This document shows positions 7,810-28,700 of a stretch of DNA of 50,457 nucleotides, piece by piece (positions within the stretch are counted from its first letter, which is position 1; each line of letters opens with the position of its first letter). Below the pieces are notes generated by a model. That model saw nothing but the letters and a program-made list of their open reading frames with translations. It searched no databases and had not been told where the DNA came from. The stretch spans positions 1 to 50,457 of the forward strand of contig JABSRB010000039.1 of NCBI GenBank assembly GCA_013215375.1. Direction: 5' to 3'. Origin of the DNA: Oceanospirillaceae bacterium. GTDB lineage: Bacteria; Pseudomonadota; Gammaproteobacteria; Pseudomonadales; Balneatricaceae. The position numbers and the translations under genes are program-made.

Positions 7810-8277
7810 ATGCGCAAACTTGATCGAATTGACAGAAACATCCTCCGTATTTTACAAAATGAAGGTAGGATCTCTTATACAGAGCTCGCCGATAATGTTG
7901 GACTTTCAACCACCCCTTGTATAGAACGAGTCCGAAGGCTTGAAAAAGAAAATTTCATTGAAGGCTACTATGCGCGTCTGAGCCCGAAAGCCCTTGGCTT
8001 CGACATGTTAGTCTTTGTTGAAATTGCCTTATCTTATCAGTCACCTGACGCATTTGAGACTTTCAATGAAGCGGTAAAGTTGCTGCCTTATATTCAAGAG
8101 TGCCATCTTGTCTCCGGAGATTCCGACTACCTCCTTAAAGCTCGCATCAGAGACATGTCTGAATATCGTGCTTTATTAGGTGAGATGTTACTTACTTTAC
8201 CCGGTGTTAAAAACTCTAAAAGCTACATTGTGATGGAAGAAGTAAAAGAAGGCGTTGCCCTACCCATCAAAGGCTAA
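7810..8277 (+). CDS. lrp: leucine-responsive regulatory protein (Lrp)
   Basis: A 155-residue Lrp/AsnC global regulator. The N-terminal winged HTH (about 5-60) has LDRIDRNILRILQNEGRI and VGLSTTPCIERVRRLE, nearly identical to E. coli Lrp. The C-terminal RAM domain (about 66-145) carries LVFVEI, IQECHLVSGDSDYLLK and VMEEVKE. Similarity is high enough to call Lrp rather than a generic AsnC paralogue. It stands alone. Directly downstream lies the array of small-RNA-like repeats. No Lrp site was identified there, so a regulatory link between the two is only a possibility. Confidence 0.93.
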   Translation: MRKLDRIDRNILRILQNEGRISYTELADNVGLSTTPCIERVRRLEKENFIEGYYARLSPKALGFDMLVFVEIALSYQSPDAFETFNEAVKLLPYIQECHLVSGDSDYLLKARIRDMSEYRALLGEMLLTLPGVKNSKSYIVMEEVKEGVALPIKG

Positions 8278-8292
8278 TATTTTACAACTTTT

Positions 8293-8317
8293 AAGGGCTA
8301 TTCTCCGAAAAGCCCTT
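8293..8317 (+). terminator. stem-loop after lrp, weak terminator
   Basis: A perfect 7-bp stem AAGGGCT/AGCCCTT with an 11-nt loop, 15 bp past the lrp stop. It lacks a downstream T-run, so it is at best a weak intrinsic terminator. Confidence 0.45.
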
Positions 8318-8405
8318 CACTACTGCTTCATCTCCCCTGCACTTTTCACATTTCGCCTATTCAGCAAGGCTTAATATAACCCCACACTAAGCGGTGAAAA
8401 ATCAC

Positions 8406-8447
8406 CCCTTGATGCTTTAGCTCCCCACCGAACTCATCTCTATTAAA
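8406..8447. repeat. diverged dispersed repeat, copy 1
   Basis: The stretch from CCCTTGATG through CTCTATTAAA resembles 32138-32177, with the same order of sub-blocks (CCCTTGATGyTTTAG, then CTCTATTAAA) and scattered differences. It is probably an old intergenic repeat or mobile-element remnant. Confidence 0.4.
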
Positions 8448-8540
8448 GCACTTCTAAGACCGTTTTTACTCCTCTTTTGTTCACTATACGTACAGCTACA
8501 TTCCTAATGTTTTTGTATTTTAATAACCGATAAATTGTTT

Positions 8541-8553
8541 AGGAATTTATCCT
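8541..8553. promoter_or_regulatory. inverted repeat upstream of sRNA unit A
   Basis: AGGA-N5-TCCT lies about 45 bp before the inferred transcript start of unit A. The same element recurs at 8896-8908 at the head of unit C. This position suits an activator binding next to a poor -35 region. It does not match the TGTAAG-N6-CTTACA GacA box. Confidence 0.35.
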
Positions 8554-8591
8554 ATGTTTTTAGCCCACCACATACAGCACAATTCACCCAT

Positions 8592-8742
8592 GGAGAGCTT
8601 AGGAAGGATCCTAAACAACCCCTTGGAGGGGAGCTCAAATGCTACTGATGGATCAAGTAGTATCGGCACGGAAGTCGAAAAAGATTTTATCAAGGACGGA
8701 CAAAATCTGGATTACTGGATGCTATTTATAGCCTCAGTGATT
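8592..8742 (+). ncRNA. CsrA/RsmA-titrating sRNA-like unit A (most diverged copy)
   Basis: First of seven tandem units. It shares with the others ATGGAGAG at the 5' end, AGGAAGGATCC, a CTACT/AGTAG stem around GATGGATCA, and CGGC-ACGGAA-GTCG. Its 3' part differs: a stem AGATTTT/AAAATCT encloses two GGA motifs, and a last stem (ATTACTG paired with CAGTGAT) replaces the terminator seen in units B-G. It may end here or read into unit B. A -10-like CACAAT lies at 8578-8583. The short ORF that can be drawn through it is not credible. Confidence 0.5.
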
Positions 8743-8751
8743 TAATCGTAT

Positions 8752-8882
8752 GGAGATAGAAAGGATTCTATATTTTCTCAGGATTTGAGAACTCAATATG
8801 CTATTCAAGGATTCGGATAGTATCGGCAAGGACGTCGAGATCAAGGGCTCTGAAATGGATAACATTCGAGCCCTTTTATTTT
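8752..8882 (+). ncRNA. CsrA/RsmA-titrating sRNA-like unit B
   Basis: Second unit, about 130 nt, with seven GGA motifs. It contains CTAT/ATAG around TCAAGGATTCGG, the conserved CGGC-AAGGAC-GTCG hairpin, and a terminal hairpin AAGGGCTC/GAGCCCTT with ATGGAT in its loop, followed by TTTTATTTT. A -10-like TTTAAT (8741-8746) precedes it. The 5' and 3' ends are inferred from the promoter-like hexamer and the terminator. Confidence 0.65.
8843..8882 (+). terminator. terminator of sRNA unit B
   Basis: Stem AAGGGCTC/GAGCCCTT with a GGA-containing loop, followed by TTTTATTTT. Confidence 0.75.
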
Positions 8883-8945
8883 GCTCCAGTTTTTAGGAAA
8901 TTGTCCTATGTTTTTAAAAACGTTATTCGAGCATTATACACCCAT

Positions 8946-9075
8946 GGAGAGTTAGGAAGGATCCTATGAAAATCCTCGGATAGGAACTCACATGCTACTC
9001 ACGGATGCAGTAGTATCGGCAAGGAAGTCGAAATCAAGGGCTCGAATATGGATATCATACGAGCCCTTTTATTTT
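8946..9075 (+). ncRNA. CsrA/RsmA-titrating sRNA-like unit C
   Basis: Third unit, about 130 nt. GGA motifs fall in or beside hairpins: ATGGAGAG at the 5' end, TCCT-CGGAT-AGGA, CTACT/AGTAG around CACGGATGC, CGGC-AAGGAA-GTCG, and the terminator hairpin with ATATGGATAT at its tip. The leader before it is about 15 bp longer than in other units and carries AGGA-N5-TCCT (8896-8908) and GTTTTTAAAAAC. A -10-like CATTAT lies at 8932-8937. Confidence 0.72.
9036..9075 (+). terminator. terminator of sRNA unit C
   Basis: Stem AAGGGCTCG/CGAGCCCTT followed by TTTTATTTT; the strongest terminator of the array. Confidence 0.82.
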
Positions 9076-9079
9076 GCCT

Positions 9080-9116
9080 CTCAAAACTTTTTAGGAAATT
9101 TTGAGAATAGTAAAAT
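9080..9116 (+). promoter_or_regulatory. promoter block of sRNA unit D
   Basis: An inverted repeat CTCAAAA-N12-TTTTGAG (9080-9105) ends 5 bp before a -10-like TAAAAT (9111-9116). Unit E has the same spacing with ATCAAAA/TTTTGAT, so the outer pair has changed on both sides together. There is no good -35 hexamer, which suggests activator dependence. Confidence 0.45.
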
Positions 9117-9120
9117 TAAG

Positions 9121-9253
9121 GAACTTTGAGTGAGTATGGATATTCAAAAATCCTCGGAATGGATCTCAAAATGCTACTAACGGATTAGTAGTATCGGCAA
9201 GGATCTCGAAATCAAGGGCTCTGATAGGGATATCATATACGCCCTTTTATTTT
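9121..9253 (+). ncRNA. CsrA/RsmA-titrating sRNA-like unit D
   Basis: Fourth unit, about 133 nt, one of the two best-formed copies. In order: GAGTA-TGGA-TATTC (one G-U pair), ATCC-TCGGAAT-GGAT, the perfect CTACTAA-CGGA-TTAGTAG, the AAGGAT motif in the CGGC region, and a terminator whose inner stem TGATA/TATCA presents GGGA. Five GGA-bearing hairpins in so short an RNA is the hallmark of RNAs that sequester CsrA/RsmA. It is 178 bp in phase from units C and E. Confidence 0.78.
9214..9253 (+). terminator. terminator of sRNA unit D
   Basis: Outer stem AAGGGC/GCCCTT, inner stem TGATA/TATCA with loop GGGA, then TTTTATTTT. Confidence 0.75.
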
Positions 9254-9257
9254 GCCT

Positions 9258-9294
9258 ATCAAAAATTTTTTAGTCGTTTTGATGGTAGTACAAT
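9258..9294 (+). promoter_or_regulatory. promoter block of sRNA unit E
   Basis: Inverted repeat ATCAAAA-N12-TTTTGAT (9258-9283), then TACAAT (9289-9294), a good -10 hexamer. The layout is the same as in unit D. The -35 position is only a T-run. Confidence 0.48.
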
Positions 9295-9299
9295 TAAGG

Positions 9300-9431
9300 A
9301 ATTTTGAGAGAGTATGGATACTCAAAAATCCCCGGAAAGGATCTCAAAATGCTGCTAACGGATTAGTAGTATCGGCAAGGATGTCGAAATCAAGGGCTCT
9401 GATAGGGATATCATATATGCCCTTTTATTTT
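9300..9431 (+). ncRNA. CsrA/RsmA-titrating sRNA-like unit E
   Basis: Fifth unit, about 132 nt and the clearest. The five hairpins are GAGTA-TGGA-TACTC, ATCC-CCGGAAA-GGAT, CTGCTAA-CGGA-TTAGTAG, CGGC-AAGGAT-GTCG, and the terminator with GGGA at the tip of TGATA/TATCA. CAAGGATGT matches the core of the published CsrA SELEX consensus (RUACARGGAUGU). The sequence drifts freely between hairpins while GGA and pairing are kept. A translated ORF through it has no relative and its frame is not kept between units. Confidence 0.8.
9392..9431 (+). terminator. terminator of sRNA unit E
   Basis: Outer stem AAGGGC/GCCCTT, inner TGATA/TATCA around GGGA, then TTTTATTTT. Confidence 0.75.
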
Positions 9432-9476
9432 GCCTATCAAAACCTTCATAGACGGTTTTAAAGACAAAATATTGGA

Positions 9477-9606
9477 AGTTTGAGTCAGTACGGATGCTAA
9501 AAATTCCTAGGACAGGAACTCAATTATCACTCATGGATGCTGTGGTATCGGCAAGGATGTCGAACAAGGGCACTGATATGGATTTCATATTTTCCCTGTT
9601 ATTTTA
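9477..9606 (+). ncRNA. CsrA/RsmA-titrating sRNA-like unit F
   Basis: Sixth unit, about 130 nt. It keeps AGTA-CGGA-TGCT, TTCCT-AGGAC-AGGAA, ATCAC/GTGGT around TCATGGATGCT, and CGGC-AAGGAT-GTCG. Its final hairpin is weak (AAGGG paired with CCCTGTT), so termination is probably inefficient. A -10-like CAAAAT lies at 9465-9470. The stem sequences differ from units D and E but the pairing survives, which favours RNA-level selection. Confidence 0.65.
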
Positions 9607-9641
9607 TCTATCGATTTATTTGATAAAGATAAAATAAGCGC

Positions 9642-9770
9642 AACAGAGCTGAATGGATACTATTTTCCCAGGGTCGGGAACTCAAATAACAACTAACGGA
9701 TAATGTTGTTATTACATGGACGCAACGTTAAGGGCCTGTATATGGAGATCATAAGTGCCCTTTTATTTTT
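9642..9770 (+). ncRNA. CsrA/RsmA-titrating sRNA-like unit G
   Basis: Seventh and last unit, more diverged. It keeps GAATGGATAC, TTCCC/GGGAA, AACAAC/GTTGTT around TAACGGATAAT (completely different stem bases from units C-E but the same fold), and a final hairpin AAGGGC/GCCCTT with ATGGAG in the loop and a T-rich tail. The CGGC hairpin is degraded to ACATGGACG. A -10-like TAAAAT lies at 9630-9635. It could be a decaying copy. Confidence 0.55.
9734..9770 (+). terminator. terminator of sRNA unit G
   Basis: Stem AAGGGC/GCCCTT with an ATGGAG-containing loop, then TTTTATTTTT. Confidence 0.65.
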
Positions 9771-9849
9771 CCTATTGAAAACTTCAGTGGCCGATTACAA
9801 ACCTAGATCCCACCTTTCTAATCTACAAATACAAATACAAAATTTTGGT

Positions 9850-9901: not shown

Positions 9902-10855
9902 TTATAGTTTGGCTAATAACTGCTCTAACTTAATTTGATCGGTAACAAAACCATCAATACCTGTCGCTAGCTTTTCACTAGCCATAGCATCTGCTTTTAA
10001 TTCTTTAGCAAATGTAGCCTCATCAATGCTAACAGCCACTTGGTCGCAACTGGCAGAACTTGCATCTAAACGGCGCTCTAAAGGCTCCATCAGTTCATCT
10101 AACTGCTGCATAAGCTGTGGGCTAATAGTTAGGCGATCACAACCTGCTAGAGACTGTATTTCACCGATACTTCTAAAACTTGCTCCCATCACAATCGTTG
10201 CATAGTTATTAGCTTTGTAAAAATTATAAATGCTAGTCACTGATTGCACACCAGGATCATTAGCACCTGTGAAATCTTTCTCTGGGAAACTCGCTTTATA
10301 CCAATCTAAGATTCTGCCGACAAAAGGCGATATCAAAAACACCCCAGCATCGGCACAAGCAGCCGCTTGCCCAAAACCAAACAACAACGTCAAATTACAA
10401 TTGATACCTTCTTTCTCCAATTGCTTTGCCGCTTGAATCCCCTCCCAAGTAGAGGCTGTTTTGATCAAGATCCGGTCATTTTCAATCCCAGCACTATTGT
10501 ACAAATCAACAATTTGATGGGCACTATCTAAAGTCCCCTGTACATCGTATGACAAACGGGCATCAACTTCTGTAGAAATTCTACCTGGTACTATTTTAAG
10601 TATTTCAAGACCGATAAGAACGGCCAACTTTTGCGTCATGTTAGCCAGTATTTGAGCATCACTACCGCCTTTTGTACGCGCCCAAACTTTGGCTTCATTG
10701 AGCAATGGTGCATAGGCGGGAAGCATACTAGCCTTAAGCAACAAAGACGGATTAGTTGTCGCATCAACGGGAGTAAACTTTTCAATAGCCGCGATATCTC
10801 CGGTATCTGCGACAACTGTGGTCATGGCTTTTAACTGATCTAATTGACTTAACAT
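9902..10855 (-). CDS. tal: transaldolase
   Basis: Transaldolase of the non-oxidative pentose phosphate pathway, moving a dihydroxyacetone unit from sedoheptulose 7-phosphate to glyceraldehyde 3-phosphate. With the start at 10855 it has 317 residues, the same as E. coli TalB, and the Schiff-base lysine falls at Lys132 in [10 protein letters not shown] as in TalB. Other blocks are [10 protein letters not shown] and [12 protein letters not shown]. An upstream in-frame ATG at 10897 would add 14 residues with no family support and would overlap dusA. A GGAT ribosome-binding site precedes the chosen start. It lies 16 bp downstream of dusA and is probably co-transcribed, as in Pseudomonas. Confidence 0.95.
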
Positions 10856-10871
10856 GCTCTGTGTATCCTTT

Positions 10872-11864
10872 TTATAAAAATGCTTCAACTTTTGCAAAAG
10901 CTTGATTTAGGACCTTGATACCAGCATCCTTTTTGTACGCTTGTTCACTAATTTCTCTTCTAAACTGTTTCCCACCCCGCATTCCGTGAAACAACCCTAA
11001 CATATGACGTGTTATATAACTTAAAGGAACGCCCATTTGCAACTGTTGCTCTATATATGGCAACATATTTTCCAGCACTTGAGTTCTAGAAATGACTTCA
11101 TTTGTGTCATTAAATAAACGCGAATCGACTTCGCTGAGTATCGCATAGGGGTTGTGATAAGCTTCCCGGCCAATCATAACGCCATCCACATGCTCTAAAT
11201 GCTGCTGCGCCTCATCAATTGTTTTAACACCACCATTTAAAATAATTTCTAAATCGGGAAAGCGTTTTTTCAACCGATAAACTCGGTCGTATTGCAGAGG
11301 TGGAACATCGCGATTTTGCTTGGGGCTAAGCCCAGATAATATCGCTTTTCTGGCATGTACAACAAATGTTTTACAGCCTGATTTATGTACTATATCGACA
11401 AACTGCTCAAGTAATTCATCAGAATCTAAATCATCGATGCCCAATCGGTGTTTAACAGTAACCGGAATGCTCACTGCATCTTGCATTTTAGCCAGGCAAT
11501 CTGCGACTAACTGCGGATGCGCCATCAGACATGCACCAATCATGTTGTTCTGCACTCTGTCACTGGGACAGCCTACATTTAAATTGACTTCATCATAACC
11601 ATAATCCTCAGCCATTTTGGCGCACAGGGCCAACTCATCGGGATTGCTCCCCCCTAGCTGCAAGGATATAGGATGCTCAGTATCGTTATATTTTAAATGC
11701 CGATCTTTATCCCCATAGATCAACGCACCGGTAGTGACCATCTCGGTATACAACAAGGTATTACCGCTGATTATCCGGTGAAAATGACGACAGTGTCTAT
11801 CTGTCCAATCCATCATCGGCGCAACACTGAAACGATTTGAAGGGTACTTACTCATATAAAACAA
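10872..11864 (-). CDS. dusA: tRNA dihydrouridine(20/20a) synthase DusA
   Basis: A 330-residue FMN/NADPH enzyme reducing uridine 20/20a in the tRNA D-loop. The TIM-barrel starts with [39 protein letters not shown] contains the catalytic cysteine region, followed by [28 protein letters not shown] (DusA-specific) and LNGGVKT. The C-terminal domain has [18 protein letters not shown]. Family length and these DusA blocks exclude DusB and DusC. Two start codons three residues apart (11864 and 11855) are possible. It is the first gene of the dusA-tal pair. Confidence 0.94.
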
Positions 11865-25736: not shown

Positions 25737-28700
25737 AACAATGCCTGCTCCATAGCAACTTTCAGCCTGTTAAATTCAATTTCCAGCTGAGTGATATTCT
25801 CTTCAATTTCTTTAAGGTTTCCGGCCTTACCGGCCTGCTCAAGTTTCAGTGCTAGAGCACTTAAAGCGATACCCCCAACGTTGGCAGACGCACCTTTAAT
25901 TTGGTGCATAATGGCCCCTGCCTGCTTTGCTTGGTTTTCTTTCACACTCACTTTGAGCTTATCAAGTTGCTCAACTAAATCTACGGCGAAAATTTCTGCA
26001 ACGGACTTCATTAGTTCAGCATCGTTCATGAGCCTGCTCGCCATGTCTTCATAGTCAAAAATGACCTTATCACCCTCGGTCTTATTTTGACTGACCTCTG
26101 GCTCAAGTTCGATGGCTGCCTCAGACGCTACTTTAGTCTTTTTAGGTAGCCATTTAGTCAGCATATCAATCACTTTTTTAGGTTCTATAGGCTTTGATAA
26201 ATAGTCATCCATACCCGCATCCAGACATTTTTGTCTATCGCCTGCCATCGCATTAGCCGTCATCGCTATAATAGGAATAGCACTATTCTTTATTCCTAGA
26301 GGCTCTGACCGTATTTTTTGGGTCGCCTCATAACCATCTAAAATAGGCATTTGGCAGTCCATAAAGACTAACTCGTGGGTACTAAGCCCCTGCAATGCGA
26401 CTATCGCTTCCTCGCCATTTCCAGCGAGGTCCACAGTGACTCCTAATACACGTAATAAACCTTCTATCACCAATTGATTGGTTGGGTTGTCTTCCACCAC
26501 TAAAACATGCGCTTTAAAAATTGCCTGCTCTTTGGAGGAATATCGAGTGATAAATTCTGGCGCGGACTTTTTAAGATCAGACACCAGCAATAACACATCG
26601 AATAGCTCAGATTGATGAATGGGTTTCGTGATATAGCCTTTAAAACCAGCAGCTTTCATTTTAACGGCATCACCACGCTGGGCTTGTGAGGAGGCCATTA
26701 TTAACTTGGTAGCAGCCAATTGCGGATCAGCTTGGATCTGCAGGCATAAATCTAAGCCTGTAGTATCTGGCATGTGCATATCTAAAATAGCGATGGTGTA
26801 GGGCCTAAACTCTTGTGCAGCCCGAGCTAACTCTGCCATAGCAGCTTTTGCACTGTCCACGACAGTGTGCGGGACTTCCCAAAGACTGTGTAGCTGCTGC
26901 ATTAAATCTCGGTTGGTTTCATTATCATCGACGATTAATACTTTTTCATTTTTAATATTAGAATTATAAATAGGCGTATCTGTTAGCGCTTCAGCCCTTA
27001 AAAGTGGCAACGTAAACCAAAAAGTTGACCCTTTTCCTACTTCACTGTTGATACCTATATCGCCACCCATCAACTCAACTAATTGTTTACAAATTGATAA
27101 ACCTAACCCCGTACCACCATATTTCCTGGTAGTAGAGCTATCTGCTTGAGTAAATTTGTCGAATAAATGCTGTTGCTGCTCATCACCAATACCAATACCG
27201 GTATCTCTAATTTCAAAACGATACAGCCTTTGCTCTGCGCTCTGCTCAACGAGTTGCACAAATACCGCAACTTCGCCCTCCTCAGTAAATTTAATCGCAT
27301 TGCCAATTAAATTAGTCAGTATTTGTCTTATCCGGCCAGGATCGGCCTTAACCCATTGTTGGATGATGGGAGTGGCGGGACAAATAAGTTGTAGATTTTT
27401 CCGCCCCGATTGAAAACTCATCGTGGTACCCACGTCTTCAACCATTTGCCCTAAATTGAAAGGGATTAGCTCAAGATCTAATTTACCAGCCTCTACTTTT
27501 GAAAAGTCCAAGATATCATTGATAATACTTAACAAGCCTACCGCAGATGACTTAACGGTATTGGCTAATTTGTGTTGATCTACGCTGAGTTCGGTTTCTA
27601 ACAGTAGGTTGGTCATACCGATAACGCCATTCATCGGTGTGCGTATTTCATGACTCATGTTGGCTAAAAAGTCTGCCTTAGAATGACTGGCAACTTCTGC
27701 CAGCTCTTTAGCGATGACCAGTTTTGCTAAGTTTTCTTTTTGCTCAGTGACATCCGTGCGAATGGAAGTAAAGCCATCGACTTGCTTTTCAGCATTAAAA
27801 TTGGGCACAATAGTGGTATCAACCCAGTAGTATTGGCCGTCCTTCGTTTTATTACGTACTTCATCACACCAAACATCACCCGCTAACACCGTTTTATGCA
27901 TCTCTTGCCAATAACTTTTAGACTGATTATTAGAGTTTAATAATCGGTGTTTTTGACCGAGTAGTTCATGCTCAGCATAACCACTTATCTGAATGAACTT
28001 ATCATTTACATATAAAATGGTGCCCTTAAGATCTGTCATTGACACAAGAGAGTGTTGGTCTAAGGCAAACTTGGCAGATTCAGCTTGAATTTTCGCTTTT
28101 AATAAATCAGAGGCATCTGCTTCTGCCTGAATTTTTGCATCTAACAATTCAGCAGTACTTAGCTCTGCTCTCTCTTTTGCCACAGTGAGCAACCTAGCAT
28201 CTTTTTTCTTTTGCGTAATGTCAGTACGGATTGAGGTAAAGCCATTCACTTTATTGTTTTTATCAAAATTGGGCACTATCGTAGTATCAACCCAATAGTA
28301 ATGACCATCTTTGGCTCTATTACGGACTTCATCGTGCCAGATGTTTCCCGCTAATACCGTCCTATGCATTTCTTGCCAATAAGATTCTGACTGGTTTTGT
28401 GAATTGAGAATTTTATGTTTTCTTCCAATCAGTTCAGCTTTGCTATAACCACTTACCTCAGAAAACTTATCGTTAACATAAGTAATATTGCCTTGTTTGT
28501 CTGACATAGAGACTAACGAGTGCGCATTCATGGCAAACTTTTGGTTTTTTAATGGTGTCATCAACGCATTCACTTGATGCTTTGATTCGTTGCTAAGCAG
28601 TCTTAATAGGATATAAAAAAAGACACTAAAAACCACAATAAAAATCACAGATAACTGATAGCTACCGCTTTGCTGCCATGACAATTGCTGATCAATGGGA

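Follow-up and report, generated by a model that had tools for sequence, protein, structure and literature searches.

What do the repeated, GGA-rich units between an lrp-like gene and tal encode in contig JABSRB010000039.1 of an Oceanospirillaceae bacterium (assembly GCA_013215375.1; the whole 50,457-nt stretch analysed is hereafter the window)? A preliminary description made from the sequence had read them as seven separate small RNAs (sRNAs) that act as sponges for CsrA/RsmA. On our analysis, the array very probably specifies tandem decoy (sponge) RNAs for CsrA/RsmA. Seven related modules (A–G) were found head to tail on the + strand, as that description had stated; when the 5.0-Mb genome was searched at E ≤ 0.01 with the first covariance model, for which 7 genomes had supplied 20 modules (six from this window), seven modules were returned, none outside the array. 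The TATCGGC marker also stood where it had been placed (8661, 8821, 9014, 9192, 9370 and 9546; the seventh unit, near 9710, is degenerate), at spacings of 160, 193, 178, 178 and 176 nt.

The array is strongly enriched in GGA. Positions 8541–9772 carry 55 GGA on the + strand versus 12 TCC, compared with a mean of 30.6 GGA (sd 3.6, maximum 44) in 1000 dinucleotide shuffles of the same region. At least six GGA were present in 29 of 55 segments of 132 nt in the array versus 2 of 4894 elsewhere in the window (both strands). The units are thus GGA-rich as first described, although the count of four to seven per unit needs revision: C–G hold 8, 7, 7, 7 and 5 and the A and B pair 18, giving 52 in the predicted transcripts rather than roughly 35. 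Head-to-tail repetition could also mark some other repeat (a mobile element, recombination array or coding repeat) with a GGA excess arising by chance, and the array is overlapped by three open reading frames (ORFs; 63, 69 and 76 aa). We regard this as extremely improbable, as the array DNA had no second copy elsewhere in the 5.0-Mb genome and the modules show compensatory pairs, terminators, indels of various lengths and a place conserved across the genus.

Alignment of 20 terminated modules, drawn from this genome and six others of the genus, revealed a shared anatomy. Hairpin 1 is of the TAGGA-AGGA-TCCTA type, the second GGA element lies mostly between short inverted repeats (by eye), hairpins 3 and 4 are of the CTACTC-AAGGA-..GTAG and TCGGC-AAGGA-GTCGA types, respectively, and the 3′ end forms a terminator hairpin that carries GGA towards its top, with TTTTATTTT after it. 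GGA occupied these five places in 20, 19, 20, 20 and 20 of the modules, and all five were filled in 19/20. The named structure was paired in 93.1% of cells (94.3% for the terminator helix), versus at most 51.2% for slid versions of it. Changes on both sides of a pair occurred in 15/24 pairs (shuffle mean 4.1, 0/500 as high; slid versions 4–9). When diverged family members were included (51 sequences, genus plus family), both-sided changes were seen in 22/24 pairs and 202 cells (shuffle means 16.1 and 50.4; slid controls 10–14 pairs and 24–45 cells), values that lean towards structure because this alignment was fitted to the covariance model. Four GGA positions were retained in 48, 47, 48 and 43 of the 51 sequences. 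The relatives have therefore diverged yet kept their GGA places, which supports the proposed sponge function.

Recurrent GGA motifs combined with compensating stems are a known design of CsrA decoys. The genome encodes a single csrA copy (PF02599, 93.8 bits), the product of which closely matches solved CsrA/RsmA chains (best 1vpz). Each ~130-nt module would mimic the CsrA sites of mRNA leaders with GGA triplets at five positions, most of them within hairpin loops, and a transcript spanning A and B would offer more than twice the roughly five sites of one module. We infer that the RNAs are expressed and bound by CsrA; each would then bind several CsrA dimers and free CsrA-repressed mRNAs. Multicopy sRNAs can also act by base pairing, as the Qrr RNAs do. 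The conserved AGGA loops resemble Shine-Dalgarno sequences and could pair with UCC-containing mRNAs without titrating any protein, and multicopy base-pairing sRNAs of the LhrC type exist, according to the excerpted text of PMC4132741. Such a base-pairing role is very unlikely here, given that CsrA is present and that each module repeats GGA at five places, whereas its stems have diverged through compensatory changes.

How many RNAs does the array produce? The number of T among the eight bases after the end hairpin was 7, 7, 7, 7, 6 and 7 for B–G, in agreement with the terminator-like ends first ascribed to these units, including a weaker one in F, whose terminator stem is poor (by eye). Only 3/8 were T after module A, and so A is predicted to read into B. 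The same tail is T-poor in relatives: 0 in G006 and G005, 1 in G002 and G004, and 4 in G001, the least clear case; module A of G003 also lacks a T-run (read by eye). G002, G005 and G006 carry an extra module between A and B whose tail is richer in T (6, 5 and 4 of 8, in that order). Given the missing T-run, we rejected seven independent sRNAs, which leaves six terminated units. Modules A (8585–8716, model match 8585–8689) and B (8743–8883, terminator at its end) most likely form one fused RNA of ~293 nt with a single terminator (AB, 8590–8883, + strand; ends predicted). Modules C–G would be ~130-nt Rsm-like units: C (model match 8939–9076, predicted transcript 8944–9076, ~132 nt), D (9118–9254), its near-duplicate E (9296–9432), F (9472–9606) and the degenerate G (9636–9770), all on the + strand. 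Against shuffles, AB, C, D and E folded well (z = −2.78, −2.24, −2.59 and −2.39, respectively).

An exact palindrome, TAGGA-N5-TCCTA, precedes AB (8540–8554, + strand) and C (8894–8908, + strand) as a putative activator site, followed by the candidate −10-like elements CACAAT (8578–8583) and CATTAT (8932–8937; both + strand, by eye). Its centre lies ~43 nt upstream of the predicted start in both cases (by hand), and the spacing to the −10-like element is similar across the promoter rows of the genus (by eye). The 5.0-Mb genome has four exact copies of the palindrome, two of them in the array. If bound by an activator, it would make AB and C the regulated core, to which D–G may add dosage through weaker promoters or read-through.

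Several observations weigh against the sponge interpretation or its details. The column shuffles carry less weight than the slid controls, because related sequences can beat shuffles without any structure. Predicted folds often leave the terminator GGA partly base-paired, and F (z = +0.32) and G (z = −0.53) fold no better than shuffles. The palindrome is found only before AB and C and is absent upstream of D–G. A consensus scan reported no + strand terminators and no + strand promoters inside the array; its rule allowing only 3–8-nt loops probably explains the missed terminators. No Rfam CsrB, CsrC, RsmX, RsmY or RsmZ model matched the array, either at gathering score or at E ≤ 10, so the Rfam comparison named as a check in the preliminary description gave no support. 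At gathering scores the array matched no Rfam family of any kind, and the only matches at 18 family loci were to tRNA and 5S rRNA genes adjacent to some of the loci. The canonical GacA box, TGTAAG-N6-CTTACA, was looked for as the promoter element of the array and not found; allowing up to 3 mismatches gave a single 3-mismatch site (8453) in 8301–9800. The best GacA homologue (C43:24166–24816, 216 aa, intact) scored 177 bits versus a cut-off of 280, and no uvrC was present among ORFs of at least 150 aa within ~6 kb on either side, so that uvrC synteny was dropped as support for it. A TAG flagged in this gene as a nonsense codon was its natural stop.

Some of these points feed a narrower alternative, in which only AB and C work and D–G are decaying, little-expressed duplicates, the dosage being mostly a relic. 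It draws on the absence of palindromes before D–G, the weak folds of F and G together with the degeneracy of G, and the clustering of D, E and F away from the modules of other genomes. Against it, D and E fold well, retain all five GGA places and have −10-like sequences (TAAAAT/TACAAT) just upstream (by eye). We consider such decay possible, though we lean towards a sponge array in which D–G also contribute.

We further investigated the occurrence of sponge homologues, and of the palindrome, which lies outside both covariance models, across the family and order, where copy numbers per genome are lower bounds. The first model matched 22/109 family genomes outside the genus, and a wider second model 60/109, a count that includes weak matches checked in part; most genomes had at least 1–3 matches and the highest at least 6. 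These homologues are diverged and mostly single or dispersed. The palindrome was located 40–93 nt upstream of 21/24 first-model family hits (17 exact, 4 with one mismatch), compared with chance expectations per stretch of 0.0007 (exact) and 0.0013 (near-exact), estimated from 1.33 Mb. This test omitted L164, which had been found via the palindrome, and the weak hits G008:C1:4889634 and G079:C94, and included L158–L160. The latter, the three weakest of the 24, had no palindrome and only 1–3 GGA (E 0.0016–0.0048) and were judged false. Of the second-model hits outside its training set (n = 20), 18 had the palindrome upstream (13 exact, 5 with one mismatch), and the other two matched it with two mismatches; 19 of 20 stretches hand-picked from the hit lists carry these hits, the other being L244 (below).

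At the order level, the wider model matched 18/390 sampled genomes, 12 of which belong to this family, the window's own included. The six outside the family (E 6e−6 to 1e−3) were rejected as relatives, as no palindrome was present near the hit examined in each. One genome of the order (G396) contained at least six dispersed, equal-scoring copies (L197; 35 bits, wider model) without a palindrome at the one examined, probably an unrelated repeat.

Within the genus, which includes Rs2, a symbiont of the bone-eating worm Osedax, the array was found behind lrp in all 7 genomes examined. Copy number in relatives, a comparison the preliminary description had named, ranged from 2 to 7 modules: 7 here, 5 in G002, G004 and G006, 4 in G001 and G005, and 2 in G003. 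The contigs of G004 and G005 end within the array, and that of G002 ends 140 bases past it. The G005 count leaves out a weak first-model hit (L244, G005:C211), a T-rich stretch after a gene that lacks a palindrome and was judged false. The upstream lrp-like gene (7810–8277, + strand, 155-aa ORF) scored 222 bits to NCBIfam Lrp NF008370, slightly below the 233 cut-off, and its product is 95–97% identical (amino acids) in the six other genomes. On the convergent side, tal (transaldolase; 9902–10897, − strand, as listed among ORFs) had tblastn matches in 2/6 same-genus stretches (G001 and G006).

A tree of 32 modules placed the A modules of six genomes together, and likewise the B modules of five genomes, with the G003 B module near them; the C modules of five genomes were adjacent, the A clade falling inside that set. 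The window's own D and E paired (0.94), with F next (0.87), and these three clustered separately from the modules of other genomes, while its G grouped with the last G004 module (0.99). Deep nodes were weakly supported, and modules A, B and D of G001 sat apart. From these groupings, the array probably predates the split of the genus and has expanded in this lineage.

Other genera offer glimpses of simpler arrangements. In three loci outside the genus (L155, L142 and L229), two neighbouring sponge copies each had their own exact palindrome, suggestive of small-scale tandem duplication elsewhere in the family. At L145, and by eye at L139 and L151–L153, a single sponge is flanked by a tal-like gene on one side and, on the other, by a gene for an RssC/HsbA-like anti-sigma antagonist (NCBIfam RssC at L145, 165 bits, below the 250 cut-off). 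Because this single sponge adjoins a tal-like gene, the tal side of the locus looks ancestral, the upstream neighbour here being lrp. Another recurring sponge site adjoins a pyrE-like gene (L154, L156 and L140; by eye).

What might switch the array on? The palindrome would be an activator site, with a GacA-type response regulator as the leading candidate, and GacA may accordingly control the array. Across 11 family loci, the canonical GacA box (up to 3 mismatches) was represented by one 3-mismatch site. A BarA/GacS-like kinase of 923 aa scored 477 bits versus a cut-off of 890. In the window itself, a large hybrid histidine kinase (25745–27727, − strand; 1191-aa open frame) scored 478 bits to the BarA model, equalling that full-length BarA candidate elsewhere.

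Two further GGA-rich stretches were noted in the same genome (G000). A second putative sponge RNA, found from the palindrome pattern alone, lies between bioA-like and sfsA-like genes (by eye; L165:1500–1700, G000:C1 ~62.66–62.86 kb). It has 7 GGA in 146 nt, a terminator with GGA in the loop and a palindrome with one mismatch; it reached 12.7 bits to the array model and was missed at genome scale, and its whole fold was no better than shuffles (z = −0.86). The other (L207, reverse strand 1501–1724; G000:C5:34358–34581) is a stretch after a gene with the tandem GGA hairpins GTTCAGGATGAAC and GGCAAGGATGCC and without a palindrome. It is possibly another CsrA decoy and gave the best score in the genome to Rfam CsrB (RF00018), a weak 17.3 bits outside the array; no match in the genome exceeded the cut-off.

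How, then, does the array relate to known sponge families? It is best read from its sequence as a CsrA/RsmA sponge system that is sponge-like yet outside those Rfam families. In a permissive scan of 6 loci (E ≤ 1), all Rfam matches were far under gathering scores, including the weak CsrB match at L207. Rfam PrrB_RsmZ (RF00166) had no match in the window's own genome, and exceeded its cut-off in 17/390 order genomes, of which 16 had at least one match and one at least two, which lay far apart from each other. The RsmZ loci examined in another family of this order (presumably relatives of Pseudomonas) carried TGTAAG-N6-CTTACA in 8/8 cases (0–1 mismatches) and the TAGGA palindrome in 0/8. The array resembles Pseudomonas RsmX/RsmY/RsmZ in its short terminated RNAs, GGA hairpin loops of the kind that titrate RsmA, upstream activator palindrome and multiplying copies, and differs in lacking an RsmZ-model match and in holding seven modules in one array. 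Excerpts of PMC7911923 describe tandem rsmX-1/rsmX-2 in P. brassicacearum and as many as five rsmX copies in P. syringae.

Enterobacterial CsrB is similar in size and site number to the predicted AB RNA. Unlike CsrB/CsrC, AB visibly consists of two Rsm-size modules joined together. The idea of an unusual dosage design holds in part: the tandem seven-module array is new, but high Rsm copy number has precedent in Azotobacter vinelandii, for which the excerpted texts report eight GacA-dependent sponge RNAs, RsmZ1–7 and RsmY (PMC12923157, PMC4824345). That likeness, in copy number within one genome, is by description only, and the word "tandem" appears in neither of these two texts. Csr-related sRNAs of other marine gammaproteobacteria, likewise compared by description only, comprise three in Pseudoalteromonas (Pf1–Pf3) and two in Alcanivorax (CsrR1/CsrR2), with no tandem array described in the excerpts of PMC11882849 and PMC9788540. 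Among the matches listed from the open PMC literature, none concerned Csr sponges in Osedax symbionts or an equally large sponge array. The new parts are the tandem array, the fused-plus-single layout and a promoter box, shared across the family, that differs from the canonical GacA box.

We took the window's family to be Nitrincolaceae because PMC10199937, in its excerpted text, places the Osedax symbionts Rs1 and Rs2 there, in the unnamed genus Rs1. For this family, we tentatively propose, at a little less than even confidence, a Csr switch operated from a non-GacA box, by GacA with altered specificity or by another regulator. The same proposal holds that in this genus the sponge grew into an expanding and contracting array, with terminator loss fusing Rsm-size modules into a CsrB-size RNA. 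If true, this would offer a direct view of the interconversion of long and short sponges, with dosage tuned by module number; the fused A and B suggest duplication and loss of a terminator as a possible route from short, Rsm-type sponges to long ones of the CsrB type. The 2–7 modules of close relatives form a natural series for relating sponge dosage to CsrA activity, and the non-canonical box opens the question of what operates the family's Csr switch to direct testing. The covariance model and promoter motif allow further members to be found of what would be a sponge family without an Rfam match, in a family of marine bacteria whose members include animal symbionts. If the sponge interpretation is true, the array would give this bacterium an unusually large, expandable sponge for metabolic switching.

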